From Stappia indica (GTDB lineage: Bacteria > Pseudomonadota > Alphaproteobacteria > Rhizobiales > Stappiaceae), in the NCBI RefSeq assembly GCF_009789575.1, contig NZ_CP046908.1, positions 1,674,001-1,738,000 on the forward strand: DNA of 64,000 bases, written 5' to 3'. Below, piece after piece: positions 17,633-52,516 of the stretch. The translations under genes and the position numbers were made by a program. A model generated the notes under the pieces. That model searched no databases. It saw only the letters and a list, made by a program, of their open reading frames with translations, and was not told the origin of the DNA. How positions within the stretch are numbered: the first letter of the stretch is position 1; the number at the start of each line of letters is the position of its first letter.

Positions 17633-19102
17633 TTACTGCGGGTCCAGCACCGCCTCGACCTCGATCTCCACCTCATAGCCGCCGATGAGATCGCCGACGG
17701 CAAGCATCGTGTTGGCCGGGCGGATCTCGCCGAAGACCCGGCCATGCACGCGCGATGGACCTTCCCAGGCGCCGACATCCTGCAGGTAGACCCGCGTGCG
17801 CACCACATCCTCCATCGAACCGCCGAAGGCGGTGAGCGCGGCGGCGATCTTGTCGAGGATATAGGTGGTCTGGGCCTCGGCATCGCCCGGTGCGACGCAA
17901 TGGTCGGCGCCATGGGTGGCGGTCGTGCCGGAGACGAGAACCCGGTCGCCGATGCGCATGGCCCGGCTGAAGCCGGCAAGCGGCTCCCAGATGCTGCCCG
18001 ACGACAGGCGCCAGCGGTTGGGCCGGCCCGGCACCGGCTCCGGCGTGTAGACGCTGGGGATCTGGTCGAGATGGTGGCTGAGGTCGCCAGACGCGGTGAG
18101 GAACGGAGGGCGGCGATACTCGTCGCCGCAGTCGCCGGGGATCGGCGTCATCGCCCCGAAAGCATCCTCCAGCAGGGCGCGGTCCTCGTCGTCGAGCGCA
18201 AAGCCGAAGAGGCGGAGATTGTCCGCCCGGTGCTCGCGCTCGCCCACCCGCGCGCCGATGATCACGCCGGCGACGGAGGGCGTTTCAAGCACCCAGCGCG
18301 TCGCGACATTGGAGAGGGAAACCCCGTGTTTCTTCGCGATACGGTCGAGCGCCGAGAGCAGCCCTTGAAAAGCCTGCCAGCCGCCGGCCGTGTCGATGAA
18401 GCGCTTGTATTTCATCCGGCTCCAGTCGGCGATTTCCGTCGGCTCCGGCTTGCCGAGCCAGCGTTCGGACAGGAACCCGCCGCACAGCGTGCCATAGGCG
18501 AGAAGCCGCACGCCCCGCTCCTGGCAAAGGGCGGTCAGGGCGCCGGCTGCGCGCCGGTCGACCACCGAGAAGGACACCTGGTTGGACACGATGGGCAGGT
18601 TCTCGGCCAGCGCAACGCGCAGATGGCCGGCATCGAAATTGGTAACGCCGATCTCGCGGATGAGCCCTTCCTCGCGGAGCTTCGCAAGATGCTTGAGGGC
18701 ATCGAGCCAGCCCGGATGCTCGAAGGTCCACCAGTGGAATTGCAGCAGGTCGACGCACGTGACGCCAAGCCGGTCGAGCCGCTCCTGCACGCCGGCCCGC
18801 ACGACGTCCTCGGTCATCGGTCCCGGCTCCGGGCACCACTTGGTGAAGGCGAGCGGACGCCCCTCCCCCTCGCCGTGGCGCGCCAGCAACCGGCCGGCAA
18901 CGAGCTCCGCATTGCCGTAGTGGTCCGCCATGTCGAAGGTGGTGAAGCCGGCGGCCGCATAATCGGCAAGGTGCCCGGCTGCCGCCTCCAGATCGACGGG
19001 CGTGCCGTCCTTCTCGATGTCGGCGATCTGCCAGAGGCCGGTGAGAATGCGGCTGATCTCCAGGTCGGGGCCGAGTTTCGTCGTATCGGGACGGCTGGTC
19101 AT
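17633..19102 (-). CDS. Aldo-keto reductase-RidA fusion protein
   Basis: Predicted 489 residues. Residues 1 to about 325 are an aldo-keto reductase with the full tetrad D57, Y62, K88 and H123. Residues about 350-489 are a RidA/YjgF-like domain (GDRVLVSGTTATHG..ILDKIAAAL..VRTRVYLQDV..RPANTMLAV..EIEVEAV). AKRs reduce carbonyls with NAD(P)H; RidA proteins hydrolyse reactive enamine/imine intermediates or handle related compounds. It is the last gene of a minus-strand operon, with its ATG overlapping the stop of the permease gene (ATGA), so it is tied to transport of its substrate. A paralogous AKR is encoded at 24056. Confidence 0.83.
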   Translation of the reverse strand: MTSRPDTTKLGPDLEISRILTGLWQIADIEKDGTPVDLEAAAGHLADYAAAGFTTFDMADHYGNAELVAGRLLARHGEGEGRPLAFTKWCPEPGPMTEDVVRAGVQERLDRLGVTCVDLLQFHWWTFEHPGWLDALKHLAKLREEGLIREIGVTNFDAGHLRVALAENLPIVSNQVSFSVVDRRAAGALTALCQERGVRLLAYGTLCGGFLSERWLGKPEPTEIADWSRMKYKRFIDTAGGWQAFQGLLSALDRIAKKHGVSLSNVATRWVLETPSVAGVIIGARVGEREHRADNLRLFGFALDDEDRALLEDAFGAMTPIPGDCGDEYRRPPFLTASGDLSHHLDQIPSVYTPEPVPGRPNRWRLSSGSIWEPLAGFSRAMRIGDRVLVSGTTATHGADHCVAPGDAEAQTTYILDKIAAALTAFGGSMEDVVRTRVYLQDVGAWEGPSRVHGRVFGEIRPANTMLAVGDLIGGYEVEIEVEAVLDPQ

Positions 19103-20100
19103 GTGCGGTCGGATCCTGTCGTCGCGGCGGGTGTGCCGCGCCATCTGTGAAGGAAAGGCAGGCGGCGACGCGTGCCGCCCGGTTCGGGAAGCAGCCCTTG
19201 CGGGCGGAAGAGAAGGATGGCGCACAGGGCGACACCGATGATCACGGTCTGCAGCGAGGCGGCGCGGGCCTGCTCGCCGGCAGGCGCCAAGGCCTCGACC
19301 ACCGCGGACGATGCCGCCCAGAGCGCCCAGACCAACAGCGCGCCGAGGATGGCGCCGCGATTGTTTCCGGAACCGCCGACGATGAGCATCGCCCAGACCT
19401 GAAAGGTCAACATCGGCAGGTAGTTCTCCGGCGCGATGAAGCCGATGAAATGCGCCTGCGCCGCACCTCCAAGTCCCATGATCGCCCCGCCGAGCGCAAA
19501 GGCCTCGATCCGGAAGCGGCGCGGGCTCTTGCCGAGCGCCTCGGCCGCCACTTCGTCCTCGCGGATCGCGCGAAGCGCGCGGCCCCAGGGGCTTTTCGCC
19601 AGATGCTGGAGCATCAGATAGAGGCCGAACACAACGGCGACGAGGAGCGCCATATTGGCGAGCGAAAAGGCGAGCGAGCGGCCGGCCAGGTCGCCGAAGG
19701 GACGCGGGATCAGGCTGATGCCGAAGGGGCCGCCGGTGATGCCCTCGAGATTGAGCACGGCAAGCTGCACGGTAACGGCAATGCCGAAGGTGGAGATCGC
19801 CAGATAATCGGCGCGCAGGCGAATGGTCATCCAGCCGATCAGCGCCGAGAGCAGCCCGGATGCTGCGAAGGCACCAAGCCAGCCGACGAGGATCGGCAGC
19901 TCGAAACCGCCGAGGCGTCCCTCCACCGCCGGCGACGTCAGCAGTGCCGACACATAGGCACCGACAGCGACGAAGCCGGCGACGCCGACATTGAACAGCC
20001 CCGTCTGGCCCCACTGCACATTGAGGCCAAGGACGATCACCGCATAGGTGAGCGCAACGGTGAGGAAAAAGGCGCAGTAGGCCAGAAGCTCCAGGCTCAT
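19099..20100 (-). CDS. Branched-chain-type ABC transporter permease (LivM-like)
   Basis: Predicted 333 residues with eight or more membrane segments, the LivM signature GLNVQWGQTGLFNVGVAGFVAVGAY-type region (from about residue 28) and the cytoplasmic loop RAIREDEVAAEALGKSPRRFRI. It forms the channel with the LivH-like protein. Start and stop overlap both neighbours (ATGA), so the operon is fully coupled. Substrates of the family include amino acids, urea, amides and aromatic acids; the ligand here is unknown. Confidence 0.9.
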   Translation of the reverse strand: MSLELLAYCAFFLTVALTYAVIVLGLNVQWGQTGLFNVGVAGFVAVGAYVSALLTSPAVEGRLGGFELPILVGWLGAFAASGLLSALIGWMTIRLRADYLAISTFGIAVTVQLAVLNLEGITGGPFGISLIPRPFGDLAGRSLAFSLANMALLVAVVFGLYLMLQHLAKSPWGRALRAIREDEVAAEALGKSPRRFRIEAFALGGAIMGLGGAAQAHFIGFIAPENYLPMLTFQVWAMLIVGGSGNNRGAILGALLVWALWAASSAVVEALAPAGEQARAASLQTVIIGVALCAILLFRPQGLLPEPGGTRRRLPFLHRWRGTPAATTGSDRT

Positions 20101-21008
20101 GCCGCCCTCCCGAACAGGCCGGTGGGGCGCGCCACCAGAACGACCGTGATCACGGCAAAGGCAACCGCCGCCCGCCATTCGGCGCCTATCGTCTGGACCG
20201 CCAGCGCCTCGCACAGGCCGACGATCAACCCGCCGAGCATGGCGCCGGGCACGGATCCGATACCGCCGAGGATGACGGCGGCGAAGAGCGGCAGCAGCAG
20301 GTCGAAGCCCATATAGGGGCGGATCTGCACCAGCAGGCCCGACATGGTGCCTGCTGTACAGGCCAGCGCGCCGCCGATGATCCATACCGCGCGCACGATC
20401 TTCGCCGTATCGATGCCGACGATGCCGGCCAGCGCCGGGTTCTCGCTGACCGCACGCATGGCGCGGCCGAGATCCGTGCGGGTGAGCAGCAGGTGAACGG
20501 CGATCACCGCCAGGAACGCAAGACCGATCAGCAACAGCTGGTCCGGCGTGGCACGGATGCCGCCGGGCAGCGGCATGGCAATCTGGAGTTCACGGGAATA
20601 GTAGGCAGGCTTCGAGGTGTAGAGGAATTCGAGCAGGCTGCGCAGCGCCATGGACGCACCGAAGCTCGCCATCACCACGATGATCGCCGTTGCCCCGCGC
20701 CGTCTCAGCCTGGCGAACAGGAGATGGTCGACGGCAAGCGCCAGAACCGCCGTGAGCGCCATGGCCAACAATCCGGCAAGGATCAGCGCCACCGACACGC
20801 TGAACGGATCGAGCGGGGCAAGGCTGGCGCCGGACACCGCACCGATGGCCAGCGACAGGCTGAGCGAGAGATAGGCGCCCCAGCTGAGCAATTCGCCATG
20901 GGCGAAATTGGCAAAGCGCAGGATCGAATAGGTCAGCGTCAGGCCGACGGCACCAAGGCCGATCATCGCCCCGGCCAGCAGGCCCTCGAGCAGGATCTGG
21001 GCGCTCAT
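20097..21008 (-). CDS. Branched-chain-type ABC transporter permease (LivH-like)
   Basis: Predicted 303 residues, about eight membrane segments, with the LivH features GLTLTYSILRFANFAHGEL and RAMRAVSENPALAGIVGID. It pairs with the LivM-like permease. It overlaps by 4 bp with the genes on both sides. Confidence 0.9.
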   Translation of the reverse strand: MSAQILLEGLLAGAMIGLGAVGLTLTYSILRFANFAHGELLSWGAYLSLSLSLAIGAVSGASLAPLDPFSVSVALILAGLLAMALTAVLALAVDHLLFARLRRRGATAIIVVMASFGASMALRSLLEFLYTSKPAYYSRELQIAMPLPGGIRATPDQLLLIGLAFLAVIAVHLLLTRTDLGRAMRAVSENPALAGIVGIDTAKIVRAVWIIGGALACTAGTMSGLLVQIRPYMGFDLLLPLFAAVILGGIGSVPGAMLGGLIVGLCEALAVQTIGAEWRAAVAFAVITVVLVARPTGLFGRAA

Positions 21009-21781
21009 CGTGTCCCCTCCCCGGCGGGTGCGGCGCCGTCCGCATGGGCGCCCAGGAACAGGCGGCCGATATCGGGATCGGCGGCGAGATCCGCCGCCGG
21101 TGCATCGTGGCGCAACAGGCCGTCGACCAGGATCACGGCGCGCGAGGCAATCGCCAGAGCCGCCCTGACATTCTGCTCGACCAGGAGGATCGGCACGCCG
21201 CTGCGGTTGATCTCGACCAACCGCGCGAACATTTCCGCCACCGCCTTGGGCGACAGTCCCGCAGAAGGCTCGTCGAGGATCAGCACCTTCGGCTCGACCA
21301 GGAGGGCGCGTGCGGTCGCCAGCATCTGGCGCTGGCCGCCGGACAGGCCGCCGGCAAGCGCGCCCGGCCGGCTTGCAAGATCGGGATAGGCCGCGAGCAT
21401 CGCCTCGATGCGCTGCTGGCGCTCCGCCTTGGGCAGGATGGCGGCCGCCACCTGCAGGTTCTCCCGGATCGTCAGAGTCGCGAAGATGTTCTCCGTCTGC
21501 GGCACGAAGGCCAGCCCCTTGCGCACCAGCGTATGGCGCGGCAGGTCCGTGATCTCCTCGCCGGAGAGATGCAAGGTGCCGCCATGCAGCGGCACCAGCC
21601 CGGCAACCGCCTTGACGAAGGTCGACTTTCCGGCCCCGTTCGGCCCGAGCACCGTGACGAATTCGCCCGGCGCCAGGGTGAAGTCGATACCCTTGACGAT
21701 AGGCAGGTCCGGCTCGTAGCCGGCGACAAGGCCGCGGGTCGCAAGCGGCGCCGACGATGCGGCGGATGCGGCTGTCGTCAT
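21005..21781 (-). CDS. Branched-chain-type ABC transporter ATPase (LivF-like)
   Basis: Predicted 258 residues. Walker A GPNGAGKS, signature LSGGQRQMLATARALL, Walker B VLILDEPSAGLSP, the LivF-type short ATPase. The ATG at 21781 overlaps the stop of the LivG-like gene; upstream open frame is not used. Confidence 0.9.
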   Translation of the reverse strand: MTTAASAASSAPLATRGLVAGYEPDLPIVKGIDFTLAPGEFVTVLGPNGAGKSTFVKAVAGLVPLHGGTLHLSGEEITDLPRHTLVRKGLAFVPQTENIFATLTIRENLQVAAAILPKAERQQRIEAMLAAYPDLASRPGALAGGLSGGQRQMLATARALLVEPKVLILDEPSAGLSPKAVAEMFARLVEINRSGVPILLVEQNVRAALAIASRAVILVDGLLRHDAPAADLAADPDIGRLFLGAHADGAAPAGEGTR

Positions 21782-22611
21782 GTCGCCGCCTCCGGCACCA
21801 CCTCGCCGAGATAGGCTTCCGCCACCTCGCGATTGGCCATGATCTCCGCAGGCGTACCGGCCGCCAGTTCCCGCCCGGACGCCATCACGACGATCCGCCC
21901 GCACAGGCGGGCGATCATGTCCATGTTGTGCTCGATGAGGAGGATGCTGACGCCCATGCGGTTGATCTCGACGATCCGGTCGATGATGACGTCGAGCAGG
22001 GCCGGATTGACGCCCGCCGCCGGCTCGTCGAGCAGGATCACCGCCGGCTCGGCCATCATCACGCGGGCAAGCTCCAGCAGCTTGCGCTGACCGCCGGACA
22101 GGACGCGGGCCGGCTGGTCGACGAGATGGCCGAGGGTCACGAAGTCGATCAGCGCCCTCGCCCGCTCGCGTGCCGCACGCTCCTCGGCCCGCACCGTACC
22201 GGGCTGCAGGAAGTTGCGCAGGATGCTTTCGCCGGTCTGGTTCTGCGCCGCAGCCATGACATTGTCGAGGATGCTCATGCCGGCGAAGGGCCGCGGGATC
22301 TGGAACGTGCGCCCGAGCCCCATGGCCAGCCGCCGTGCGGCTGGCTGTCGCTCGATCCGCTCGCCCTTCAGGCGGATTTCACCGGCATCCGGCACGAGAC
22401 TTCCGGCGATAAGGCTGAAAAACGTCGTCTTGCCGGCGCCGTTCGGCCCGATCAGCCCGACGATCTCTCCGCCATGGAGGTCCAGCGACATGCCGTCCAC
22501 CGCCCGGTTGCCACCGAACCGCCGGGCAACGCCCGTCGCCGACAGGACCGGCGGCGACCCGCCGGCCGATACGCGCGCTGCCCCGTCCGCAGTGCTGCTG
22601 ACTGACTGCAA
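21778..22611 (-). CDS. Branched-chain-type ABC transporter ATPase (LivG-like)
   Basis: Predicted 277 residues. Walker A GPNGAGKT, signature LSGGQRKLLELARVMM, Walker B VILLDEPAAGVNP and the LivG C-terminal BCA-type extension (PAEIMANREVAEAYLGEV). The start is a TTG at 22611 with AAGGAG 7 nt upstream, a near-ideal ribosome site, and no in-frame ATG fits. First gene of the minus-strand transporter operon, divergent from the GntR gene at 22898 with palindromic operator-like sites between them. Confidence 0.88.
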   Translation of the reverse strand: MQSVSSTADGAARVSAGGSPPVLSATGVARRFGGNRAVDGMSLDLHGGEIVGLIGPNGAGKTTFFSLIAGSLVPDAGEIRLKGERIERQPAARRLAMGLGRTFQIPRPFAGMSILDNVMAAAQNQTGESILRNFLQPGTVRAEERAARERARALIDFVTLGHLVDQPARVLSGGQRKLLELARVMMAEPAVILLDEPAAGVNPALLDVIIDRIVEINRMGVSILLIEHNMDMIARLCGRIVVMASGRELAAGTPAEIMANREVAEAYLGEVVPEAAT

Positions 22612-22720
22612 GGATCCGCTCCTTATCCCGGCGCCTCGGCGGCGGGGTCTTTTCGCCCCTGTCTGTCACGACCTCCAAAAGGCAATCGACAGCCACCAAA
22701 GAACCGCCTCGCGATCCGTG

Positions 22721-22762
22721 ATGTTTGATCAAACATATCTTGATCACAGATCGCGTTTGATT
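22721..22762. promoter_or_regulatory. Tandem TTGATC palindromes, candidate operator of the GntR/FCD regulator
   Basis: ATGTTTGATCAAACAT (22721-22736) is a perfect 16-bp palindrome. A second TTGATCA core (22740-22746) has its centre 15 bp further and a third half-match TTGATT (22757-22762) 17 bp beyond. They lie in the only AT-rich stretch between divergent livG-like and gntR genes, so one regulator could control both arms. Confidence 0.6.
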
Positions 22763-22897
22763 GTAAAGATGGAACAGACGGGTTTTTCAGCCGGCTTCGA
22801 GGGAAGTGCGACCACCGCCTTGCGAGGCGCTTCGACCGCATTCCGGCACTCTCACGCCGCAAGACCTGCCCCGGAGGGGGAAGCCAAGGAGGAGGCG

Positions 22898-23665
22898 ATG
22901 GCTGCAAGGACGGCTGGCGGATTGCTGCGTGTTGCCGGCGCCGTGCCCGATGCCGGCGACAGCGAAAGCGCGCTCGCCCCGCTCAATCCGGTCGGGCGCC
23001 GCACGGTGCAGGACAGCGTCTATGACGAACTGCGCCGATCCCTGATCCAGGGCCTGTTCGATCCCGGCGAAGTCCTGCGCATCGTCGACGTTTCCAACCG
23101 CCTCGGCACCAGCACCATGCCCGTGCGCGAGGCCCTGGCCCGCCTGATCTCGGAGCAGGCGCTTGAGGCGATGCCCAACCGCTCCGTCCGCGTGCCGCTT
23201 ATCTCCCGCGACCGCCTGGAAGACCTTGCCCGCGCCCGCGCGATCATCGAGAGCGAGGTCATCGGCCTTGCCATGCCGAACGTCACGGATGCGCTCGTCG
23301 ATCAACTCGTGCACCTGACCGATGCCTGCGACGCCGTGCTGGCGACCAAGGGACGCGAGATTTCCGGCGAGGCTGCGGACCTCAACCACGCCTTCCACTT
23401 CACCCTCTACCGCGCCGCCGGATCACAGGTGATGATCCCGATCATCGAGAGCCTGTGGCTGCAGTCGGGCCCGTATCTGCGCGCCTCCGCCCGCCTCTTC
23501 GATCCCGTCACCGACCGATCCGCCACCCACTTTCACCGCGAGATCGTCGAGGCCGTCACCCGGCGCGACACGCCGGCCGCACAAGCCGCGCTCAAGGCGG
23601 ATATCGGACGTGCCTTCGACATCCTGCGCAAGCATCTGACCGAAACCGGCGAGGAAACCCGATGA
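22898..23665 (+). CDS. GntR family regulator, FCD subfamily
   Basis: Predicted 255 residues. A winged HTH (VYDELRRSLIQGLFDPGEVLRI..RLGTSTMPVREALARLISEQALEAMPNRSVRV) is followed by an FCD helical domain with metal-ligand-type His/Asp positions (D-x-x-x-H in DLNHAFHFTL, HFHREIV). The ATG at 22898 has AGGAGGAGG just upstream. The stop overlaps the next gene (ATGA). It probably controls both the Liv-type transporter and the downstream enzymes through the TTGATC sites. Confidence 0.86.
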   Translation: MAARTAGGLLRVAGAVPDAGDSESALAPLNPVGRRTVQDSVYDELRRSLIQGLFDPGEVLRIVDVSNRLGTSTMPVREALARLISEQALEAMPNRSVRVPLISRDRLEDLARARAIIESEVIGLAMPNVTDALVDQLVHLTDACDAVLATKGREISGEAADLNHAFHFTLYRAAGSQVMIPIIESLWLQSGPYLRASARLFDPVTDRSATHFHREIVEAVTRRDTPAAQAALKADIGRAFDILRKHLTETGEETR

Positions 23666-24042
23666 GCCACGAGGCGAACGACGACAGCTTCGAGCTCTAC
23701 GATCTCCGGGTCGAGGCGGTGATGCCGGAAGACGGCGGCAAGGTCTATTGCGGGGCAAAGCCGGGCGATCACTTCGAGCTGCGCGGCGAGATGCTGCACC
23801 TGCCGCCTGGCCAGGGCTTCTCGATCTACTCCATCGCGGCCGTCCTGCCGCTGCTGGCGGCAAAGCAGCGCCCGACCCATCCCAACGACTGGATGACCAG
23901 CGACGCGGATGTCGCCTGCCCCGATCCCAACTGCGCCAGCCGGCTGCGCATCACGCGACTCAGCCTGCGCCGTTTCTCCCACGCGGCGACCACCGCCGTT
24001 CCCCTTCCAGGTGCCGGCGACGACGGCGCAAACGGCGAGTGA
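23662..24042 (+). CDS. TIGR04076 family protein
   Basis: Predicted 126 residues, small and soluble. The pattern of an N-terminal YDLRVEAV strand, KVYCGAKPGDHFEL, a SIYSIAAVLPLLAAKQR helix and a C-terminal DVACPDPNC motif matches the TIGR04076 family, which has no assigned function. The conserved cysteines could bind a metal. It sits between the regulator and an aldo-keto reductase with overlaps or tight spacing, so it is probably part of the same pathway. Confidence 0.72.
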   Translation: MSHEANDDSFELYDLRVEAVMPEDGGKVYCGAKPGDHFELRGEMLHLPPGQGFSIYSIAAVLPLLAAKQRPTHPNDWMTSDADVACPDPNCASRLRITRLSLRRFSHAATTAVPLPGAGDDGANGE

Positions 24043-24055
24043 CCCCGTGACTGCG

Positions 24056-25108
24056 ATGGAAACCCATGTCCTGAAGGACGATCACGTCATCTCCCGCGTC
24101 ATCCGCGGCGGCTGGCAACTTGCCGGCGGGCACGGCGCCGTCGACCGAGACACGGCAATCGACGACATGATCGCTTTTGCCGATGCCGGCATCACCACCT
24201 TCGACTGCGCCGACATCTACACCGGCGTGGAAGAGCTGATCGGCGCCTTCCGCGAGCGCTACCGCGACTTGCGGGGAGAGGAAGCCCTGTCCCGGATCTG
24301 CGTCCATACCAAGCTGGTGCCGGATCTCGACCGCTTGATCGGCATAGACCGCGCGCATGTGGAGGAGCTGGTCGACCGGTCGCTGTCGCGGCTGCGCTGC
24401 GAGCGGCTGGACCTCGTCCAGTTCCACTGGTGGGACTACAACGCGCCCGGCTGGCTGGACGTTGCCCTGTGGCTCAAGGAGCTGCGCCAGGCCGGCAAGA
24501 TCCGCAATATCGGCGTCACCAATTTCGACAGCGACCATGTCGCCGCCATGCTGGCCGCAGGCGTTCCTCTCGTCTCGGCGCAGGTGCAGTATTCCCTGCT
24601 CGACACGCGCCCGGCCAAGCGGCTCGCCGGCATCGCCCGCGACAACGGCATCTCCTTCCTGTGCTACGGCACGGTCGCCGGCGGTTTCCTCAGCGAGAAG
24701 TGGCTCGGCCAGGCGGAGCCAGCCGCCGAGCTGGAGAACCGCTCACTGGTCAAATACAAGCTGATCATCGAGGATTTCGGCGGCTGGGACCTGTTTCAGG
24801 CGCTGCTGGCCGCCCTCAAGCAGGTTGCCGACAAGCACGGCACCGACATCGCAAGCGTTGCCAGCCGCTGCGTGCTGGACCGCGATCAGGTCGGCGCCGT
24901 CATCGTCGGTGCGCGCAACCGGGCACACCTTCCCTCCAATCTCGGCCTTTGCGATATCGCCCTGGATGCCGACGACCGCGCGAAGATCGCGGACGTGCTC
25001 GCCTCCTCACGCGAACTGGACGGCGACGTCTACACGCTGGAGCGGGACCGCCACGGGCGCCACGGCCGCATCATGAAATACAACCTCAACGACGAGAAAG
25101 CGGCATGA
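24056..25108 (+). CDS. Aldo-keto reductase
   Basis: Predicted 350 residues with the AKR tetrad D50, Y55, K86 and H124 and the late GAR segment (VGAVIVGARNRAHLPSNL) that binds the cofactor phosphate. It is clearly a paralogue of the AKR half of the protein at 17633: both share FHWW..PGWLD, GVTNFD, a GT..GGFLSE(K/R)WLG block and a GGW..FQ.LL..L block. The GTG at 24047 is an alternative start. It overlaps the next gene by 4 bp (ATGA). Confidence 0.85.
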   Translation: METHVLKDDHVISRVIRGGWQLAGGHGAVDRDTAIDDMIAFADAGITTFDCADIYTGVEELIGAFRERYRDLRGEEALSRICVHTKLVPDLDRLIGIDRAHVEELVDRSLSRLRCERLDLVQFHWWDYNAPGWLDVALWLKELRQAGKIRNIGVTNFDSDHVAAMLAAGVPLVSAQVQYSLLDTRPAKRLAGIARDNGISFLCYGTVAGGFLSEKWLGQAEPAAELENRSLVKYKLIIEDFGGWDLFQALLAALKQVADKHGTDIASVASRCVLDRDQVGAVIVGARNRAHLPSNLGLCDIALDADDRAKIADVLASSRELDGDVYTLERDRHGRHGRIMKYNLNDEKAA

Positions 25109-25548
25109 CGGGCGCGGGCGACCTTGGCGCTGCTGCCGCCCGCGAGATCCTCGCCCGGCACGAATTCTTCGTCGACTGGTTCTCCGGCCGGCTTTCCGAC
25201 AGCGCCTTTGCCGCCTCCCTTGCCGCCTTCGAACCGGACTTCCATCGCATCGACCCGGACGGCGCCCTGCAGGATCACGCAGGCCTCACTGCGATGCTGG
25301 CCGCCGCGCGAGGACGGCTTGCCGACGGGTTCGCGATCACCATCGAGGAGATCGCGGTGCTGAGGGAGACCGGCGAGGAGGCCTTGATGACCTATTTGGA
25401 ACGGCAGGAGCACGGCGGAAGGACCACTTTCCGCCGCGCCGGCGCGCTGTTCTCCAGAAATGCCGACGCCCCTTTGGGAGTGGCGTGGCGCTTCGTCCAG
25501 GAAACCTGGATCAATGACCGTACGGACGAACAACCGGCGGCAGAATGA
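25105..25548 (+). CDS. Small SnoaL-like (NTF2-fold) protein
   Basis: Predicted 147 residues. The layout (N-terminal helices, FEPDFHRIDPDG, a long helix, then strands ending GVAWRFVQETW) is that of SnoaL/DUF4440-type NTF2-fold proteins, which are small binding proteins or enzymes. The match is by pattern only. ATGA overlap with the aldo-keto reductase, and the binding-protein gene follows after 17 bp, so it belongs to the operon. Confidence 0.6.
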   Translation: MTGAGDLGAAAAREILARHEFFVDWFSGRLSDSAFAASLAAFEPDFHRIDPDGALQDHAGLTAMLAAARGRLADGFAITIEEIAVLRETGEEALMTYLERQEHGGRTTFRRAGALFSRNADAPLGVAWRFVQETWINDRTDEQPAAE

Positions 25549-25565
25549 CGAGAAGGGGAACAGCA

Positions 25566-26840
25566 ATGAGCAAGTTGAAATGGACTTCCGCGCTTGCCGG
25601 CGGCGTCCTCGCCGCATTGGCGGCAGGTCCGGCGGCACAGGCCTGCGAGGTCACCGTCGGCCTCGTCCTCGAACTCACCGGCCCCGCCGGCCAGTACGGC
25701 CAGGCCGGCGCCAAGTCGGTCGAGATGGCGTTCCGCGATCTCAACGAGGCCGGCGGCGTTCTCGACGGCTGCAAGCTTGTGACCGACACCCGCGACAGCC
25801 AGAGCCAGGGCAACGTCGCCGTCGATCAGGCGACCCAGCTGGTCAACATCAAGAAGGTGCCGGTCGTCATCGGCGGCATCATCTCCTCGGTGTCGATCCC
25901 GATCCTGACTTCGGTCACCGCGCCCGCTGGCGTCGTCCAGGTCTCGCCCGCCTCCTCCTCGCCGACGCTGACCCAGCTCGCCCGCGACGGAAAGACCGGC
26001 GGCTACTTCTTCCGCACCATCACGTCCGACGCCCTCCAGGGCACCGCAGCGGCGAAATATGCCATCGACCAGGGGCTGAAGAAGCTCGCGATCGTCCATG
26101 TGAACAACGACTTCGGCGTGAACATGGTGCGCGAGTTCTCCTCCGCCTTCGAAAAGCTCGGCGGCACCATCACGTCCACGACCCCCTATAACGAGAAGCA
26201 GGCGAGCTACTCCGCCGAGGCATCCGCCGCGATGGCGGGCGAGCCGGAAGCGCTCTATCTCGTCAGCTACCCCGTCGACGGCGCCACCATCGCCCGCGCC
26301 TGGATCTCGCAGGGCGGACCGCAGACCTTCCTGCTGAACGACGGCATGAACTCCACCGACTTCATCGAGAGCGTCGGCGCGAAGTTCCTCGACAACGCCT
26401 TCGGCACGTCGTCCGGCACCACGCCGACCAAGTCGACGGAGTATTTCTACGGCGCCTACAAGGACTTCTCAGGCGGCATCGAGCCGAGCGCCCCTGCCGC
26501 CGACCGCTCCTACGATGCCGGCGCCATTGTCGGCCTCGCCATCGCCAAGGCGGGCTCCGCCGAAGCCGACGCGATCAAGGCCGCCATTCCGCAGGTCGTT
26601 GCCGCCGACGGCGAGCCGATCTTCGCGGGCAAGGACGAGTTCGCCAGGGCGCTCGAGCTGATCAAGGCCGGCAAGCCGATCAAGTATGAAGGCGTCATCG
26701 GACCGGTCGGCTTCGACGAATACGGCGACATCACCGGCCCGTTCCGTCTGTGGCGGATCTCGTCCGGCGAGGTCACGACCGTCGGCCAGATGTCGGCGGA
26801 GGACGTGATGAGCCTCAAGGACGAACTGGCCGGCAAGTAA
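25566..26840 (+). CDS. Branched-chain-type ABC transporter substrate-binding protein (LivJ-like)
   Basis: Predicted 424 residues with a signal peptide (MSKLKWTSALAGGVLAALAAGPAAQA) and the Leu/Ile/Val-binding protein type I fold (VTVGLVLELTGPAGQYGQAG, then PVVIGGIISSVSIPI). It is on the opposite arm from the permeases and ATPases at 19099-22611 but is the only binding protein in the locus, so it presumably serves them. AGAAGGGG lies upstream of the ATG. A terminator follows at 26862. Confidence 0.88.
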   Translation: MSKLKWTSALAGGVLAALAAGPAAQACEVTVGLVLELTGPAGQYGQAGAKSVEMAFRDLNEAGGVLDGCKLVTDTRDSQSQGNVAVDQATQLVNIKKVPVVIGGIISSVSIPILTSVTAPAGVVQVSPASSSPTLTQLARDGKTGGYFFRTITSDALQGTAAAKYAIDQGLKKLAIVHVNNDFGVNMVREFSSAFEKLGGTITSTTPYNEKQASYSAEASAAMAGEPEALYLVSYPVDGATIARAWISQGGPQTFLLNDGMNSTDFIESVGAKFLDNAFGTSSGTTPTKSTEYFYGAYKDFSGGIEPSAPAADRSYDAGAIVGLAIAKAGSAEADAIKAAIPQVVAADGEPIFAGKDEFARALELIKAGKPIKYEGVIGPVGFDEYGDITGPFRLWRISSGEVTTVGQMSAEDVMSLKDELAGK

Positions 26841-26861
26841 GCCTGCACACGTCAAAAAGAA

Positions 26862-26900
26862 GGGCCCGTACCGATGCCGGTGCGGGCCCTGCCCCTTTTT
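26862..26900 (+). terminator. Terminator after the LivJ-like gene
   Basis: A 12-bp stem (26862-26873 with 26878-26889, one non-Watson-Crick pair) is followed by TGCC and TTTTT. It lies between the convergent LivJ-like and BKACE-family genes. Confidence 0.8.
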
Positions 26901-26937
26901 GGCGGATCCGCCGGGCGTCAAACGCCCCGGCCGAGCC

Positions 26938-27765
26938 TCATGCGGCAAGCCCGAGGAGCGCGCGCGCCTCGGCAACGCTCGCCGGATGGCGGCCGTATTG
27001 CGGGCAAAGATCGACGACCCGCTGCACCAGGGCGGCGTTCGACGGGGCAAGCCGGTCCTTGTCGAGACGGACATTGTCCTCAAGGCCGGTGCGGCAATGG
27101 CCGCCAAGCTCTAGGCTCCAGCGGTTGAGCTCGATCTGGTTGCGGCCGATGCCGGCTCCCGTCCATGTCGCTTCGGGCATCAGCCGCTTCAAGGTCTCGA
27201 CATAGAACTCGAAGACCTTGCGGTCGGCCGGCATGGCGTTCTTCACGCCCATCACGAACTGGACATGCAGCGGTCCCTTGAGGCGTCCGTCCTTGACCAT
27301 AGAGGCCGCCTGGAACATGTGCGACAGATCGAAGGCCTCGATCTCCGGCTTGACGTTGTAGGCGAGCATTTCCGAGGCCAGCCAATCTACGAGATCCGGC
27401 GGGTTCTCGTAGACGCGCGTCGGGAAATTGTTGGACCCCACCGACAGGGACGCCATGTCGGGAGCCAGCGGCAGCATGCCGCCACGGGCCTTGCCGGCAC
27501 CCGAGCGACCGCCGGTCGACAGCTGGATGATCATGCCGGGGCAATGCTTCTTCAGCCCCTCGACCAGCCGGGCAAACCGCTCCGGATCGGAGGTCGGCTT
27601 GCCGTCCTCCTCGCGCACGTGACAATGAGCGATCGTGGCTCCCGCCTCGAACGCCTCCTGCGTGCTTTCGACCTGCTCGGTAACGGTGATCGGCACCGCC
27701 GGGTTGTCCGATTTCTGCGGCACGGAACCAGTTATCGCCACGCAGATGATGCAAGGGTCGGACAT
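26938..27765 (-). CDS. BKACE family (3-keto-5-aminohexanoate cleavage-like) enzyme
   Basis: Predicted 275 residues. The family cleaves beta-keto acids with acetyl-CoA in a zinc-dependent reaction. The zinc motif HCHVRE is present near residue 47, with GGxxG-like STGGRSG and the family's PEIEAFDLSHM and GVGRN-like GAGIGRNQ segments. Two starts are possible: the ATG at 27765 (AGGAGG 12 nt upstream) and a GTG at 27774 (3 nt); I keep the ATG. It converges on the LivJ-like operon and may contribute a late step in the same catabolism, which is inference. Confidence 0.83.
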   Translation of the reverse strand: MSDPCIICVAITGSVPQKSDNPAVPITVTEQVESTQEAFEAGATIAHCHVREEDGKPTSDPERFARLVEGLKKHCPGMIIQLSTGGRSGAGKARGGMLPLAPDMASLSVGSNNFPTRVYENPPDLVDWLASEMLAYNVKPEIEAFDLSHMFQAASMVKDGRLKGPLHVQFVMGVKNAMPADRKVFEFYVETLKRLMPEATWTGAGIGRNQIELNRWSLELGGHCRTGLEDNVRLDKDRLAPSNAALVQRVVDLCPQYGRHPASVAEARALLGLAA

Positions 27766-27902: not shown

Positions 27903-29933
27903 TCAGAACACCCCACGCACCGGCGTCACGACAGCCTGCGGGGCCAGGCTGCCGGCCCCGCCTCCCGGTCTGCCGCCGCGCGCAAGCAGGGCCGCAAGGT
28001 CGGAGGCCGGCACGGGTGCCCCGAACAAGAACCCTTGCGCCACCCGGCAACCGGCACCTGTCAGAAGCGTCACCTGCTGCTCCGTCTCGACGCCCTCCAC
28101 CGTCACGCCGATGTCGAGCCGGGCGGCCAGTTCCAGGATCGAGGTGACGATCGACAGGCTGTGACGGTCGGTATCGAGCGACCTTACGAAACTGCGGTCG
28201 ATCTTGAGTTCGTCCCACTGGAAGCTGCGCAGATACGACAGCGCCGAATAGCCGGTTCCGAAATCGTCGAGCGAGATCGATACGCCCAGTGCCTTCAGTT
28301 TCTTCAAGGTGGCGATCGCCCGGCGCGTGTCCTTCATGACCACGCTTTCGGTCACTTCCAGCTTCAGCCGCGATGCCGGCAGGCCGAAGCGCAGCAGCAC
28401 ATCCGCAACGGTTTCCGCAAGATCCTCGCGGGCGAGCTGGGCGACCGACAGGTTGACCGCCACCGGCAGTTCCATGGAAAGGGCGAGCGCGTCTCGGCAG
28501 GCCTGCTCCAGGATCCGCTCGCCGATCTCGACGATCCGGCCCGACGCCTCGGCGATGGGGATGAACTCGCTGGGAGGAACCCAACCGAGCGTGGGGTGAC
28601 GCCAGCGCGCCAGCGCCTCCAGGCCGACGATGCGGCCGGTCAGCATGTCGACCTGTGGCTGGTAGTGGGTGGCGATGTCGCCGTCCTCCAGCGCCTGGGT
28701 AATGCCTTCCTCGATCTGGCGGCGGCGCGTTGCGTCCGCGCGCATGGAGACATCGTAGAGCTGCACACGACCCTTGCCGGTTGCCTTGGCATGGCTCAGC
28801 GCCAGGTCCGCGTTTTGCAGCATCGACGAGCCGCTCTCGTCGTCCTGCGCTAGGGCAACGCCGATCGTCGCGTTGACCACCACATTGCCACCGCTCAGGG
28901 TATGAGCCTCATGCAGGCCGTCGATGAGCAGCTTGCCCCTGGCGACCGCTTCCTCCTCTCCTCCGGACAGCCGGGTCAGCACTGTGAACTCGTCGCCGCC
29001 GAGCCGCGAGACCACGTCGCGCGGGCCCCAGTCGGCAACGATCCGGCGCAACCTGTCGGCCACCGAGCGCAGCAGGTCGTCGCCGGACGCATGACCTAGA
29101 ATGTCGTTGACCGCCTTGAACCCGTCGAGATCCAGCGCAAGCACGGCAAGTCGCCTGCCGTCACGCGGCCTTCCGGTCGATATCGCCTGTTCCAGTGCGT
29201 CATGGAAGGCGATGCGGTTGGGCAGGCCCGTGAGCGGATCGTGTCGGGCCGTGAACTCGAACTCCCGTGCCGTCTGCTCCGCCGTTGCCCTGGCCCGGCG
29301 CAGCGAACGGGCCTGGAAGGACATGAACAGCAGCAAGATCGCGCCGGTCCCCACCAGCACTTCCACCAGGATGTTCTGGAGCCTCTGGCGCTCGAGCAAT
29401 GTGGCACGAATTTCGGCGGCCTCGACCAGATTGTCCATCAGCGCCTCGCCGCCGATGCGATCGATGACGCCCACAGCCTTTTCCAGTACGGCATCGATGC
29501 GCGCCAACGCCGCCCGATCCGGCAAGGCGGCATAATCGCTCTCGATCGATGCCACATCCCGCGACAGCTCGTCGAGCATCGCCTTGCGTTGCGGCGATAC
29601 CGAAACGAAGGCGCCGAACGCGCCCGACGACCAGGTCTCGATACGGCTTGCCAGGATATTGTAGAAGAGCCACGCCTCTTCTGCGTCCGATACCCGCCCG
29701 GTCGCCGCGTATTGCGAGATGCGCTGGCGTGCCGTTACCGCGTCGACACGCCCGTTGAGCCCCGACATGGCAATGTCGTAGCGCATCGACTTGTCGACGG
29801 CTCCCCCGGTCGTCAACACCGCCTCGGCATGCAACAGGACCGCCAGCACCAGAACCACCAGGACCGTAATGGCCAAATGGCGGAAGCGGTCGCCGACGGA
29901 TGTCGCGCGCTTGAGGAGGATCGACAGGGTCAT
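27903..29933 (-). CDS. Membrane GGDEF/EAL cyclic-di-GMP protein
   Basis: Predicted 676 residues. Two membrane segments (about 19-38 and 188-206) enclose a helical periplasmic region of about 150 residues. A diguanylate cyclase domain follows with an intact GGDEF at 312-316, then an EAL phosphodiesterase domain with EAL at 439-441, DDFGTGYS and KIDRSF segments. Both active sites look intact, so it could make or break c-di-GMP. No RxxD inhibitory site precedes the GGDEF. Its start is 4 bp after the stop of a small secreted protein, which suggests that protein as its periplasmic partner. Confidence 0.88.
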   Translation of the reverse strand: MTLSILLKRATSVGDRFRHLAITVLVVLVLAVLLHAEAVLTTGGAVDKSMRYDIAMSGLNGRVDAVTARQRISQYAATGRVSDAEEAWLFYNILASRIETWSSGAFGAFVSVSPQRKAMLDELSRDVASIESDYAALPDRAALARIDAVLEKAVGVIDRIGGEALMDNLVEAAEIRATLLERQRLQNILVEVLVGTGAILLLFMSFQARSLRRARATAEQTAREFEFTARHDPLTGLPNRIAFHDALEQAISTGRPRDGRRLAVLALDLDGFKAVNDILGHASGDDLLRSVADRLRRIVADWGPRDVVSRLGGDEFTVLTRLSGGEEEAVARGKLLIDGLHEAHTLSGGNVVVNATIGVALAQDDESGSSMLQNADLALSHAKATGKGRVQLYDVSMRADATRRRQIEEGITQALEDGDIATHYQPQVDMLTGRIVGLEALARWRHPTLGWVPPSEFIPIAEASGRIVEIGERILEQACRDALALSMELPVAVNLSVAQLAREDLAETVADVLLRFGLPASRLKLEVTESVVMKDTRRAIATLKKLKALGVSISLDDFGTGYSALSYLRSFQWDELKIDRSFVRSLDTDRHSLSIVTSILELAARLDIGVTVEGVETEQQVTLLTGAGCRVAQGFLFGAPVPASDLAALLARGGRPGGGAGSLAPQAVVTPVRGVF

Positions 29934-30799: not shown

Positions 30800-31600
30800 T
30801 TAGCCGTTGAGTTTTGCGACGGCGCGTTTGGCCATGACGGCGACGAGGTTGGCGCGGTACTCGGCCGAGCCGTGGATGTCGGAGATGAGGTCGTCCGCAT
30901 CGGTCGTGACGGCGGCTGCGGCCTCCGGCGTGAAGCTCTGCGACAGCGCCTGTTCCAGCCCCTCGTGGCGGAAGACGCCGCCCGCGCCCGCCCCCGTCAC
31001 CGCGACCCGCACGCCGCCGTCGGTGCGCGCAACGAACACGCCGGCCATCGCATAGCGCGAGGCCGGGTTCGGATACTTGGCATAGGCGCAGGCCGCGCAG
31101 GCGGGGATCTCGACCGCAGTCACGATCTCCCCCTCCTCCAGCGCCGTCTCGAACAGGCCGGTGAAGAACTCCTCCGCAGCCAATCGCCGCTTGTCGGTGA
31201 CGATGGTCGCCCCCAAGGCCAGCATTGCCGAGGGATAGTCCGCCGCCGGGTCGTTGTTGGCGATCGACCCGCCGATCGTCCCGCGATGGCGCACATGCGG
31301 ATCGCCGATATGGCCGGCAAGCTCCGCAAGACCCGGCGCCAGCCGCCGCACGCTCGGTGAGCCGGCAACCTCCGCATGGGTCGTCGCCGCCCCGATCCGC
31401 AAGCCCCCACCCGTTTCAGTGATGCCCTTCAGGTCGGCGACATGCGTCACGTCGACAAGGTCGGACGGCGCGGCCAGCCGCTGCTTCATCGTCGGCAGCA
31501 GGGTCATGCCGCCAGACAGGATCTTGCCGTCCTCGCAAGCGGCGATCTTCGCCGCCGCATCGGCGACGCTCGTCGCCCGGTGATAGGTCGTCTCGTACAT
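30800..31600 (-). CDS. coxM: Xanthine dehydrogenase-family FAD subunit (CoxM-like)
   Basis: Predicted 266 residues. The FAD-binding motifs SGGMTLLPTMK (about 29-39) and GTIGGSIANNDPAADYP (about 109-125) are typical of the medium subunit of molybdenum hydroxylases. It passes electrons from the [2Fe-2S] subunit to an acceptor. Last gene of the coxG-S-L-M operon; the S-L-M order is that of form II CO dehydrogenase-like clusters. It is separated from coxL by about 165 bp. Confidence 0.85.
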   Translation of the reverse strand: MYETTYHRATSVADAAAKIAACEDGKILSGGMTLLPTMKQRLAAPSDLVDVTHVADLKGITETGGGLRIGAATTHAEVAGSPSVRRLAPGLAELAGHIGDPHVRHRGTIGGSIANNDPAADYPSAMLALGATIVTDKRRLAAEEFFTGLFETALEEGEIVTAVEIPACAACAYAKYPNPASRYAMAGVFVARTDGGVRVAVTGAGAGGVFRHEGLEQALSQSFTPEAAAAVTTDADDLISDIHGSAEYRANLVAVMAKRAVAKLNG

Positions 31601-31766
31601 CCCGGTTCTCCCTCGCCCGGCATCCGACCGGGCCTCTTGCTCGTCTGGTGAGGCGCCCCGGGGGCCAAGGGCCGTCCGGGAGCACCGTCCTCAAGGATTG
31701 CGCGGCCTGCTCCGCGGCCCTACTCCGCTGCTTGTTGCCGGCGCAGCGCAGATCACTCCGCTGCTC

Positions 31767-34136
<2,370 letters not shown>

Positions 34137-34231
34137 CTCGTCCTCCCTCGCAAGGGCCGCGATGCCCGGCATCCTCCCGCCCGGCACCCGCCCTGCATGC
34201 GTTCCTCATGTCGATAGCTTCGACGTGCCAA

Positions 34232-34259
34232 TCGCTTCGAACAGTTCGCTTCGAACAGT
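34232..34259. repeat. Perfect 14-bp tandem duplication
   Basis: TCGCTTCGAACAGT occurs twice in direct succession (34232-34245 and 34246-34259) in the 260-bp spacer between coxL and coxS. Confidence 0.9.
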
Positions 34260-34311
34260 CTCCCGGCAGGCCCGCCGCATCGCCATCCCCCGAACGGCGG
34301 CAGGCCCCTTG

Positions 34312-34347
34312 CCTGGGCGGCCTGGGCAGCCTGGGCGGCCTGGGCGG
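34312..34347. repeat. Four tandem copies of a 9-bp unit in the coxS-coxL spacer
   Basis: CCTGGGCGG repeats four times in a row, the second copy with one change (CCTGGGCAG). With the 14-bp duplication nearby, it makes this operon spacer unusually repetitive. Confidence 0.9.
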
Positions 34348-34397
34348 CGGCGCCTCAAACCCCGTGCGACGCCCCCTCCGGTCCCCTGTTCGGCGCC

Positions 34398-34889
34398 CTA
34401 TTCGGCCGCCGTCTTCATCCCGGCCATCGTCTCGCTCGCGGCCGCGATCGCCTTGACGATGTTGTGGTAGCCCGTGCAGCGACAGATGTTGCCTTCCAGC
34501 TCGGCCCGGATCGTCGCCTCGTCCAGCGGACCCCCGCCATGGCGCGCGATCATGTCCACCGCCGCCATGATCATCCCCGGCGTGCAGAAGCCGCATTGCA
34601 GACCGTGATGCTCCTTGAACGCCGCCTGCACCGGGTGCAACTCGCCCCCGGACGCCAGACCCTCGATCGTCGTCACGTCGCAGCCCGAGGCCTGCGCCGC
34701 CAGCATCGTGCAGGACTTCACCGCCTTGCCGTCCACATGCACCACGCACGCCCCGCATTGCGACGTGTCGCAGCCCACATGCGTGCCCGTCAGGCCGAGC
34801 CCCTCGCGCAGGAACTCAACGAGAAGCGTCCGGTCCTCGACCACCCGCGTCACCGTCCGACCGTTCACGACCATGTTCACTTCGGCCAT
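34398..34889 (-). CDS. coxS: [2Fe-2S] subunit of CO dehydrogenase-like enzyme (CoxS-like)
   Basis: Predicted 163 residues. Both iron-sulfur clusters are supported: C40, C45, C48 and C60 for the plant-ferredoxin-type cluster and C99, C102, C136 and C138 for the second. It links the molybdenum subunit to the FAD subunit. The ATG at 34889 with GGGAGGA upstream is preferred to a start at 34910. Confidence 0.9.
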
Positions 34890-34999
34890 GCAAATCCTCC
34901 CTCGTTCCAAAAGGCCTGTTCCAACGCCCCTTCAGGGCAGGCCGGCCATCTTCAAACCTGTTGCTCAAACCTCAGCGCGCCAAGCTCGGCGCGCCAACT

Positions 35000-42893: not shown

Positions 42894-44240
42894 TTACGTC
42901 CGTCCGGTCCGTCCGATCAACAGGCCTCTGAGCCATCCCGACAGGCTATCCATCGCCATCACCATCAGGACGATGAGGATGATGTAGTAGCTGACTTCCT
43001 CCCAGTCCTTCTGGGTGATGATCGCCTGGGTGAGCAGCAGGCCGATGCCGCCGCCGACGATGGCACCGATCACGGTGGCGCTACGGGTATTCGATTCCAG
43101 ATAGTAGAGCACCTGGCTGAGCAGCACCGGGACGATCTGCGGCATGACGCCGAAGCGCGCCTGCTGGATCGGCGAGGCGCCTGTCGACTGGACGCCTTCC
43201 ACCTGCTTGCGGTCGATGTTTTCCAGCGTCTCGGAGAACAGCTTGCCGAACGAACCGGTGTCGGTCATCAGGATCGCCAGCGATCCGGTGAGCGGACCGG
43301 GTCCGAAGGCCCGGCTCAGGATTATCGTCCAGATCAGCCCGTCGACGCCCCGGACGAAATCGAAGAAGCGCCTGAGCACGAAGCGCAGGCTGCGCGCCGG
43401 CGTGAAGTTGGACGCTGCGAGGAATGCGAGCGGCAGCGCCACGACCGCCGCTCCCATCGTCCCGAGGAAGGCCATCAGGACCGTCTCGAACAACGCCCAT
43501 GCCACATCGCCATGCCGCCACATCTGATTGTTCCAGAAGTCCGAGATCATGTGAACGACGTTCGGCCGCGCCGGGTCGATACGCTCGCCGGAAATGGCAA
43601 GGTTCGCCAACTCGGGGAAGGACAGTCCGCTGAACGGGCTGTCGAGCGTGAAGAAGAACAGCTCCCAGCCCGGTTCGTAGCGAAACGTCTCGGTGCGATT
43701 GCGCGTCATCGAGAAGCGGCCCTCGGGCGTCGTCACGGTGACGCGCGCGGAAGACGCATTGATCCAGTCCGGAATGTCGCCTTCGGGCAGGTCGAGGCGA
43801 ATGCCCCGCCCTTCCGGTTCGACCCGGACCACGCCGTAGTCCGGGATGGTGAAGCGCGCGCCCTCGCCCTCGTAGACGACCTCGTAGCCCTTGCCGAGGT
43901 CGATGCGCGTGATGCCATCCTGCATGCCCACCCAGTCGGGCAGACGGCCGGGCGGATAGGTCCCCTTGTTCTCGCCTTCGATGGCGACGGTGACGGCGCC
44001 GGAGCGGTTGTCCCGCGTCACATGCGTCTTGTGGCTCCAGAAGTCGGACAGGAGGATTGCGACATTGTCGGTCCTTGCATTCGCGGCAATGCCGGGAATG
44101 TCGAAGGCAAAGAATACGTAGGTCAGATAGACGAGAACCACCGCGGGAACAGCGAAGGCGACTCTCCGCTTGCGGTCGAAAGCAGCCACCGCCGCATCGC
44201 CAAGCGTGCCGGCGGGCGTCGTGGAGATCATGGCGGTCAT
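42894..44240 (-). CDS. phnE: Phosphonate ABC transporter permease PhnE2 with large periplasmic insertion
   Basis: Predicted 448 residues against roughly 260-300 for ordinary PhnE. After the first membrane segment (about 28-46) there is a non-membrane region to about residue 245, rich in strands and Pro-Asp-Trp turns, then five or so membrane segments with the EAA-like GVQSTGASPIQQARFGVMPQ loop. The insertion is flanked by two similar SDFW segments (residues 65-68 and 233-236). It forms the channel with PhnE1. Single continuous frame, so not a frameshift artefact. Confidence 0.87.
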   Translation of the reverse strand: MTAMISTTPAGTLGDAAVAAFDRKRRVAFAVPAVVLVYLTYVFFAFDIPGIAANARTDNVAILLSDFWSHKTHVTRDNRSGAVTVAIEGENKGTYPPGRLPDWVGMQDGITRIDLGKGYEVVYEGEGARFTIPDYGVVRVEPEGRGIRLDLPEGDIPDWINASSARVTVTTPEGRFSMTRNRTETFRYEPGWELFFFTLDSPFSGLSFPELANLAISGERIDPARPNVVHMISDFWNNQMWRHGDVAWALFETVLMAFLGTMGAAVVALPLAFLAASNFTPARSLRFVLRRFFDFVRGVDGLIWTIILSRAFGPGPLTGSLAILMTDTGSFGKLFSETLENIDRKQVEGVQSTGASPIQQARFGVMPQIVPVLLSQVLYYLESNTRSATVIGAIVGGGIGLLLTQAIITQKDWEEVSYYIILIVLMVMAMDSLSGWLRGLLIGRTGRT

Positions 44241-44241
44241 G

Positions 44242-45099: not shown

Positions 45100-45134
45100 G
45101 AAGTCCTGCTGCAGGTGCCTGTGGCCAAAGCGCA

Positions 45135-45158
45135 CGGGCGGGACCGAAGTCCCGCCCG
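45135..45158 (-). other. UUCG-tetraloop hairpin between phnD and phnE1
   Basis: On the mRNA strand a perfect 10-bp stem (CGGGCGGGAC/GTCCCGCCCG) is closed by C(UUCG)G, one of the most stable RNA tetraloops. It starts 21 bp after the phnD stop and has no T-run. It probably blocks 3' decay so that phnD message outlasts the permease message. Confidence 0.65.
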
Positions 45159-45179
45159 GCAATCAAGAAGATCGTTCGA

Positions 45180-46085: not shown

Positions 46086-46160
46086 GTGACGTCTCCTGAA
46101 AGAGTCGTTGGATGATTCTTGTGTTTGACCGCGCGCGGACACCGCGCCGGATCCTGCGGC

Positions 46161-47012: not shown

Positions 47013-47056
47013 CTGCGCCTCAATCCTGATGATTGAAGCTTGCGTACTCGGTATAG

Positions 47057-47096
47057 ATGACAGGGAATCTGCGGTTTTATGACAGTTCCCTGACGT
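47057..47096 (-). promoter_or_regulatory. Pho-box-like repeat array upstream of phnC
   Basis: Read on the minus strand, CTGTCAT occurs at 47085-47079 and again at 47063-47057, exactly 22 bp apart. The 11-bp register is filled by CCGCAGA in between and ACGTCAG before (47096-47090). PhoB-type regulators bind 7-bp CTGTCAT repeats every 11 bp. A TATACC -10-like element follows directly. This predicts phosphate-starvation control of phosphonate uptake. Confidence 0.7.
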
Positions 47097-47134
47097 TTGC
47101 CGGATACAGCGCAGTAATTCGACGGCTCACGACT

Positions 47135-47755: not shown

Positions 47756-47765
47756 GCCCCGTTCC

Positions 47766-48491: not shown

Positions 48492-48493
48492 GA

Positions 48494-52413: not shown

Positions 52414-52516
52414 GTGCCGCTCCGTTTTCAGTTTCGCACTCGCCCGGGAGGCTCTCATGCCCCGCAATGGCAGCAGCCACCTTCGCGCCCAGTGTCCCTA
52501 CACCTGCCGTCTATAT

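Follow-up and report, generated by a model that had tools for sequence, protein, structure and literature searches.

What compound is handled by a locus that places a complete amino-acid-type importer back to back with two aldo-keto reductases (AKRs), one of them fused to a RidA-type domain? The question is raised by a 64,000-nucleotide stretch of the Stappia indica genome (hereafter the window; positions 1,674,001–1,738,000 of a 5.1-Mb genome in a single contig), in which two divergent operons occupy positions 17,633–26,840: a leftward livGFHM operon that ends in the gene for the AKR-RidA fusion and a rightward operon with the order gntR–TIGR04076–AKR2–SnoaL-like–livJ. The comparisons described below identify these operons as one mobile unit of about ten genes, present in many soil and marine bacteria, and lead us to the tentative reading that it is a GntR-controlled importer and carbonyl-redox module for a compound of the tryptophan or kynurenine type. 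The components are as follows.

17,633–19,102, minus strand: AKR-RidA fusion, 489 amino acids in one open frame (Pfam AKR, residues 19–312; Ribonuc_L-PSP, residues 374–485)
19,099–20,100, minus strand: livM-type permease (Pfam BPD_transp_2), overlapping the fusion gene by 4 nt
20,097–21,008, minus strand: livH-type permease (Pfam BPD_transp_2)
21,005–21,781, minus strand: livF-type ATPase (Pfam ABC_tran; NCBIfam)
21,778–22,611, minus strand: livG-type ATPase, TTG start likely (Pfam ABC_tran and BCA_ABC_TP_C; NCBIfam)
22,723–22,734, strand not applicable: operator-like palindrome GTTTGATCAAAC in the gap separating the divergent operons
22,898–23,665, plus strand: GntR/FCD regulator, encoded at the head of the right-hand operon (Pfam GntR and FCD)
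23,662–24,042, plus strand: TIGR04076 family protein with a conserved CPDPxC-like motif (NCBIfam, 53.5 bits against a cut-off of 33)
24,056–25,108, plus strand: AKR2, the second aldo-keto reductase (Pfam)
25,105–25,548, plus strand: SnoaL/DUF4440-like protein, optional (sub-threshold Pfam matches, E 0.014–0.022)
25,566–26,840, plus strand: LivJ-type protein, the unit's sole binding protein (Pfam Peripla_BP_6)

Conservation of the two operons as one unit

The operons diverge from a 286-base intergenic region between livG and gntR. Every junction of the left-hand operon (livG/livF/livH/livM/fusion) is a 4-nt overlap, as are gntR/TIGR04076 and AKR2/SnoaL-like on the right. Pfam, NCBIfam and gene-start analysis recovered all genes named in the original prediction, made from the sequence alone, at or very near the positions it had given them; it had set gntR between the two arms, which is correct as to location, but gntR heads the right-hand operon. 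By Pfam the importer set is complete, with two permeases, two ATPases and one binding protein, so that, as in Liv/HAAT branched-chain amino acid importers, all five subunits are present and the livGFHM junctions overlap by 4 nt. It differs from those importers in that the binding-protein gene lies in the opposite operon, together with the enzymes, and among the matches listed the Liv subunits reach no NCBIfam equivalog cut-off.

All reading frames of 92 fusion-anchored loci (12 on plasmids and 80 on genome contigs, the latter the best 80 of 562 confirmed) were compared with the window proteins. In 80 of the 92 the fusion is found together with TIGR04076, AKR2, LivJ and LivGFHM, and 72 of these 80 also have a GntR match above threshold; the gene order of the window is reproduced exactly in 58 loci, and a second order, with gntR beside the fusion, is found in 12. 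Since the set recurs in 80/92 loci, the arms form one unit and the gene grouping is not due to chance, and the co-occurrence of the fusion, the TIGR04076 protein and the second AKR that had been proposed as a test across genomes is thereby confirmed. The SnoaL-like gene is present in 14 of the 92 loci. Among the 12 loci without the full set, L085, L088, L107, L113, L121 and L126 are short pieces, L119 misses only an over-threshold AKR2 match, and L040, L054, L064, L115 and L116 are real exceptions.

Among the hosts of plasmids carrying the unit are members of the Rhizobiaceae, Phyllobacteriaceae, Stappiaceae, Methylobacteriaceae, Amorphaceae, Paracoccaceae and Roseobacteraceae, and the unit is therefore found in Hyphomicrobiales and Rhodobacterales, that is, in at least two alphaproteobacterial orders. 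A match over at least 80% of the fusion length was obtained in 17 plasmid records. Within the family of the window's own genome the fusion is patchy (27/87 genomes), and its nearest named relatives are from Stappia, three at 97–98% identity and one at 89%. Two plasmid neighbourhoods are recorded here as separate observations. In Antarctobacter (L040:12001-13464) the fusion stands alone beside amino-acid and PotD/PotF-type ABC transporters, a glutamine synthetase family gene, an N-formylglutamate amidohydrolase and an isochorismatase family gene; in Acuticoccus (L043:13447-13944) a peptide deformylase gene (Pfam) lies 9 nt behind the annotated fusion gene and would suit a formylated intermediate.

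Divergent loci, defined by GntR and LivG matches both above 180 bits on opposite strands, numbered 60 including the window. The palindrome TTTGATCAAA occurs in the gntR–livG gap of 58 of these, in 43 as GTTTGATCAAAC; the two without it are L043 and L058. Outside such gaps TTTGATCAAA occurs once (L070:997) in 2.45 Mb of sequence from 118 loci, namely the 92 fusion loci and 26 others, and it was not found in the loci of the second gene order. The window's own genome holds one perfect GTTTGATCAAAC, at 22,723–22,734, and two one-mismatch sites elsewhere. From this placement we infer that the GntR/FCD regulator binds the palindrome.

The original prediction had held that its grouping would fail if the arms occurred independently. 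For the most part they are linked (80/92 loci), but the TIGR04076–AKR2 pair is wider than the fusion. In a sample of 289 genomes spread over Alphaproteobacteria, TIGR04076 was present in 17 genomes (19 places) and the full-length fusion in eight; fusion carriers G270 and G115 lack an adjacent TIGR04076 gene, and in G142 the fusion is at a contig end. An AKR2-like gene lies beside TIGR04076 in 16 of the 18 places fetched (the window excluded), and because 12 of these 16 pairs have no fusion in the stretch, the fusion looks like an addition to a wider pair. TIGR04076 thus gains a regular partner enzyme. Its CPDPxC-like motif is conserved in an alignment of 36 sequences, and its structure model has a mean predicted local distance difference test score (pLDDT) of 87.2. 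A TIGR04076 protein identified by annotation is likewise found near oxidoreductase genes in the Bilophila isethionate cluster (PMC8667426) and on Rhodococcus plasmids; in those settings its companions are glycyl-radical-enzyme or LLM flavin oxidoreductase genes, whereas here the companion is an AKR.

Some variants carry other genes in place of the fusion: DUF3830 and a DAO-type FAD oxidoreductase in L162 and L182, or a separate Rid gene, hydantoinase A/B and a class V aminotransferase-like protein in L166, L167, L173 and L174, a group that also carries a DAO or Amdase/racemase-type protein. The TIGR04076 gene of L173 shares a 4-nt overlap with a hydrolase gene. Hydantoinase A and/or B is also near the module in L112, L117, L118, L165, L170 and L043. 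Several further arrangements were noted in passing. The DUF3830 gene directly precedes TIGR04076 (L182:11158-11649; L162, near 8892); a Rhodococcus plasmid (L187:7682-8192) has two TIGR04076 genes beside genes annotated as an LLM flavin oxidoreductase, an amino-acid transporter and salicylyl-CoA 5-hydroxylase; a Paracoccaceae plasmid (L184:17742-18419) has an annotated L-aspartate dehydrogenase after livJ in a TIGR04076–AKR2–Liv arrangement with no fusion listed; and a Rhizobium jaguaris plasmid (L183:12001-13014) has a relative of AKR2 (62%) but not the module, next to a gene of the acyl-CoA dehydrogenase family and about 6 kb from a non-ribosomal peptide synthetase.

The two reductases and the Rid domain

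The catalytic tetrad of the AKR superfamily is Asp-Tyr-Lys-His. In an alignment of 33 fusions, from which L052 was left out owing to a stop codon in its stated range, the corresponding residues Asp57, Tyr62, Lys88 and His123 are invariant (33/33), and in pairwise alignment AKR2, which is 41% identical to the fusion AKR over 329 aligned columns, keeps the tetrad residues. The structure model of the fusion (mean pLDDT 90.4; predicted template modelling score 0.92) is confident for both domains and lower for the linker, which is conserved around GDCGDEYR.

The Rid half of the fusion is clearly recognizable (Pfam Ribonuc_L-PSP, E 4.3e-21, residues 374–485), yet the position of the RidA catalytic arginine (Arg105) is occupied by Asn464, which aligns to the arginine of the Pro-Ala-Arg motif in solved RidA proteins and is invariant in 33/33 fusions; the nearest solved relative by sequence, 3i7t, has threonine there. 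A passage of PMC4433059 states that imine hydrolysis needs this arginine and that it is missing in subfamilies Rid4–Rid7, which it calls mysterious; the rule is backed for Rid1–Rid3 in part of PMC5619798. The original prediction had taken RidA as a sign of enamine/imine chemistry, an argument that fails because the arginine has become asparagine in all 33 fusions, although the domain itself is clearly conserved. The fusion resembles Rid4–Rid7, as outlined in that passage of PMC4433059, in belonging to the same Pfam family and in having likewise lost the arginine, and departs from them in that the domain is fused to an AKR and the residue is an invariant asparagine. What arginine-less Rid proteins do is described there as an open question, and the fusion, present in 53/297 genomes of one family, makes it directly testable because its operon is defined, the palindrome is conserved and there is a candidate pathway.

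The proposed tryptophan–kynurenine link and its rivals

The genes flanking the unit were grouped into clusters, the largest of which were inspected by eye. The recurrent families were a CoA-ligase group (nine loci), hydantoinase B (nine), the SnoaL-like gene (eight), hydantoinase A (seven), kynureninase (seven) and a hydrolase (six), besides transporters of generic type, short-chain dehydrogenases, transposases and GGDEF genes; among the smaller groups, of four to five loci each, were aldehyde dehydrogenase, 2-hydroxyacid dehydrogenase, indolepyruvate-oxidoreductase-like and aminotransferase genes. A kynureninase and a tryptophan 2,3-dioxygenase, both from L089, served as queries against the 118 loci and the window. 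Kynureninase was found at 6/92 fusion loci (L053, L089, L092, L093, L094 and L096) and at 3/26 others (L173, L174 and L185), and the dioxygenase at 7/92 fusion loci, the same six and L124. Family scores exceed the cut-off for the dioxygenase in L053, L089, L094 and L096 and for kynureninase in L053 and L089; the L174 kynureninase falls just under it (238 against 246).

In L089, L093, L094 and L096, which represent two Aurantimonas, a Fulvimarina metagenome-assembled genome and Aureimonas, all Aurantimonadaceae, the two genes are part of the operon itself and separate livM from the fusion. The livM/kynU junction is a 4-nt overlap in the first three and a 2-nt gap in L096, and in L089 kynU overlaps the dioxygenase gene by 4 nt, ahead of the fusion. 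Two Mesorhizobium loci have both genes close to the fusion. The genomes of L053, L089 and L096 each hold a single kynureninase (E 1e-30), located at the module, and in L053 the fusion adjoins a block of benzoate-CoA-ligase-family, salicylyl-CoA-5-hydroxylase-type, enoyl-CoA hydratase and acyl-CoA dehydrogenase genes. Tryptophan–kynurenine–anthranilate clusters (tryptophan dioxygenase, KynU and the aminobenzoyl-CoA route) share an operon or neighbourhood with the unit, or with the TIGR04076–AKR2 pair, in Aurantimonadaceae, in Mesorhizobium, in one variant alphaproteobacterial type and, within 10 kb, on a haloarchaeal plasmid. We know of no kynurenine cluster that contains TIGR04076, two AKRs and an AKR-RidA fusion.

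The most economical account is that the product or inducer of the module lies in the tryptophan–kynurenine–anthranilate route and that some lineages have built genes of the route into the same operon. Our current working hypothesis, to which we give a likelihood somewhat below even, is that LivJ and LivGFHM would import an aromatic compound of the tryptophan or kynurenine type, that the TIGR04076 protein with AKR2, together with the fusion, would alter its carbonyl or hydroxyl groups, that the altered compound would enter the route, and that the local GntR/FCD regulator would control both divergent operons through the gntR–livG palindrome. Both the substrate class and the order of reactions are what we infer from these associations. 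A more specific form, that the unit is an undescribed entry branch of tryptophan metabolism in which an imported oxidized or otherwise modified tryptophan/kynurenine compound is turned into a kynurenine-pathway intermediate by the TIGR04076–AKR pair and the fusion, the arginine-less Rid having taken on a new role beside the AKR, either in catalysis or in channelling, is unlikely.

Across genomes the association can be quantified. In the family of the L053 genome (297 genomes), kynureninase is present in 43/53 fusion carriers and 120/244 non-carriers (one-sided Fisher 1.2e-5), and 155 of the 163 genomes having it hold just one copy; in the window's own family the dioxygenase is present in 27/27 carriers and 45/60 non-carriers (p 0.004). 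Among the matches listed, kynureninase lies less than 3 kb from the fusion in G375, G376, G417 and G460 (positions are missing for G426, G447 and G531), and the chance expectation within about 10 kb is 0.17, with a Poisson probability of 0.014 for two or more.

Several results weigh against the working hypothesis. Phylogeny is not taken into account in the Fisher values, and G375, the genome on which the L053 family was centred, was picked for its adjacency; G375 and G376 were known beforehand, so that only G417 and G460 are unbiased cases, and 10/53 carriers in that family have no kynureninase at E 1e-50. The own-family figures for kynureninase (27/27 carriers against 53/60 non-carriers, p 0.09) are not significant. 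Neither gene was found in the flanking sequence covered for 85/92 fusion loci, and in L095 (Jiella, Aurantimonadaceae) livM is directly beside the fusion with nothing between. Unlike the kynurenine clusters, the window has no kynureninase or tryptophan dioxygenase gene that our search could find; the genome's own kynU and dioxygenase genes are at 3.75 Mb, 2 Mb from the module, and none of the three operator matches (at most one mismatch) is located at them. Solved relatives of the binding protein carry names that denote binders of amino acids or of an unspecified ligand, and Pfam and NCBIfam assigned neither AKR to a family below the superfamily.

It could instead be that the unit degrades a cyclic amide, a hydantoin-like compound or a secondary amine unrelated to tryptophan, the kynurenine genes having clustered with it by chance or through shared habitat. 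The fusion-less variants with DUF3830 and a DAO-type oxidoreductase, those with a separate Rid, hydantoinase A/B, an aminotransferase-like protein and a DAO or Amdase/racemase-type protein, and the further loci with hydantoinase genes near the module all point this way. However, genomes of this kind hold many hydantoinase and DAO genes, which are likelier chance neighbours than kynureninase, single as it is in most genomes that have it in the one family, and two of the variants in question (L173 and L174) carry kynureninase-type genes too; we consider this explanation doubtful, though a serious competitor. Less probable still is a detoxification set in which the AKRs would reduce reactive carbonyls or enone by-products of aromatic amino acid uptake and breakdown, and the Rid domain would dispose of a carboxylate-less intermediate. 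The intact tetrad of both AKRs is consistent with such a role, as are the best NCBIfam match of each, a methylglyoxal-reductase model that scores far below its cut-off, and the absence of the carboxylate-binding arginine from the Rid domain (PMC4433059, in the passage cited above), but a dedicated importer and a local regulator in the same two operons suit catabolism better than general detoxification.

The earlier proposal of a regulated import-and-degradation system in which two AKRs act jointly is well supported by co-occurrence, palindrome and gene overlaps, except for the membership of BKACE considered below. A nitrogen-containing substrate is still favoured, no longer through RidA but through the kynurenine/anthranilate, DAO-type and hydantoinase-type genes of some relatives. 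No description of this gene set was found in the literature searched, in agreement with the original prediction, which knew of no named pathway holding it.

Neighbouring genes and other features of the window

Beyond livJ lies one gene that the original prediction had included in the system:

26,938–27,765, minus strand: BKACE gene, a neighbour outside the unit, convergent with livJ (Pfam)

Were the larger system the true unit, BKACE would cleave a beta-keto acid made by the AKRs, and it does adjoin livJ both in the window and in three further loci of Stappia. It is found in only 3/92 fusion loci, all from Stappia (L048–L050), or 3/77 of those reaching at least 1.2 kb past livJ; it was not found in the other 89, 74 of which extend that far, including a fourth Stappia locus, L051. 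This rarity, and its transcription towards livJ, place it outside the unit and make the larger system very improbable indeed.

Further downstream, positions 27,903–29,933 of the window encode a GGDEF-EAL protein. GGDEF/EAL genes are near the module in 5/92 loci (L037, L046, L048, L049 and L050), with weak matches in L036 and L052. A molybdopterin dehydrogenase of the xanthine/aldehyde oxidase type is encoded at 30,800–34,910, its large subunit recognized by Pfam and its small subunits by eye, and the region 42,894–52,467 includes a phosphonate-binding protein and PhnI of the C-P lyase type, both identified by Pfam, among other genes assigned by eye.

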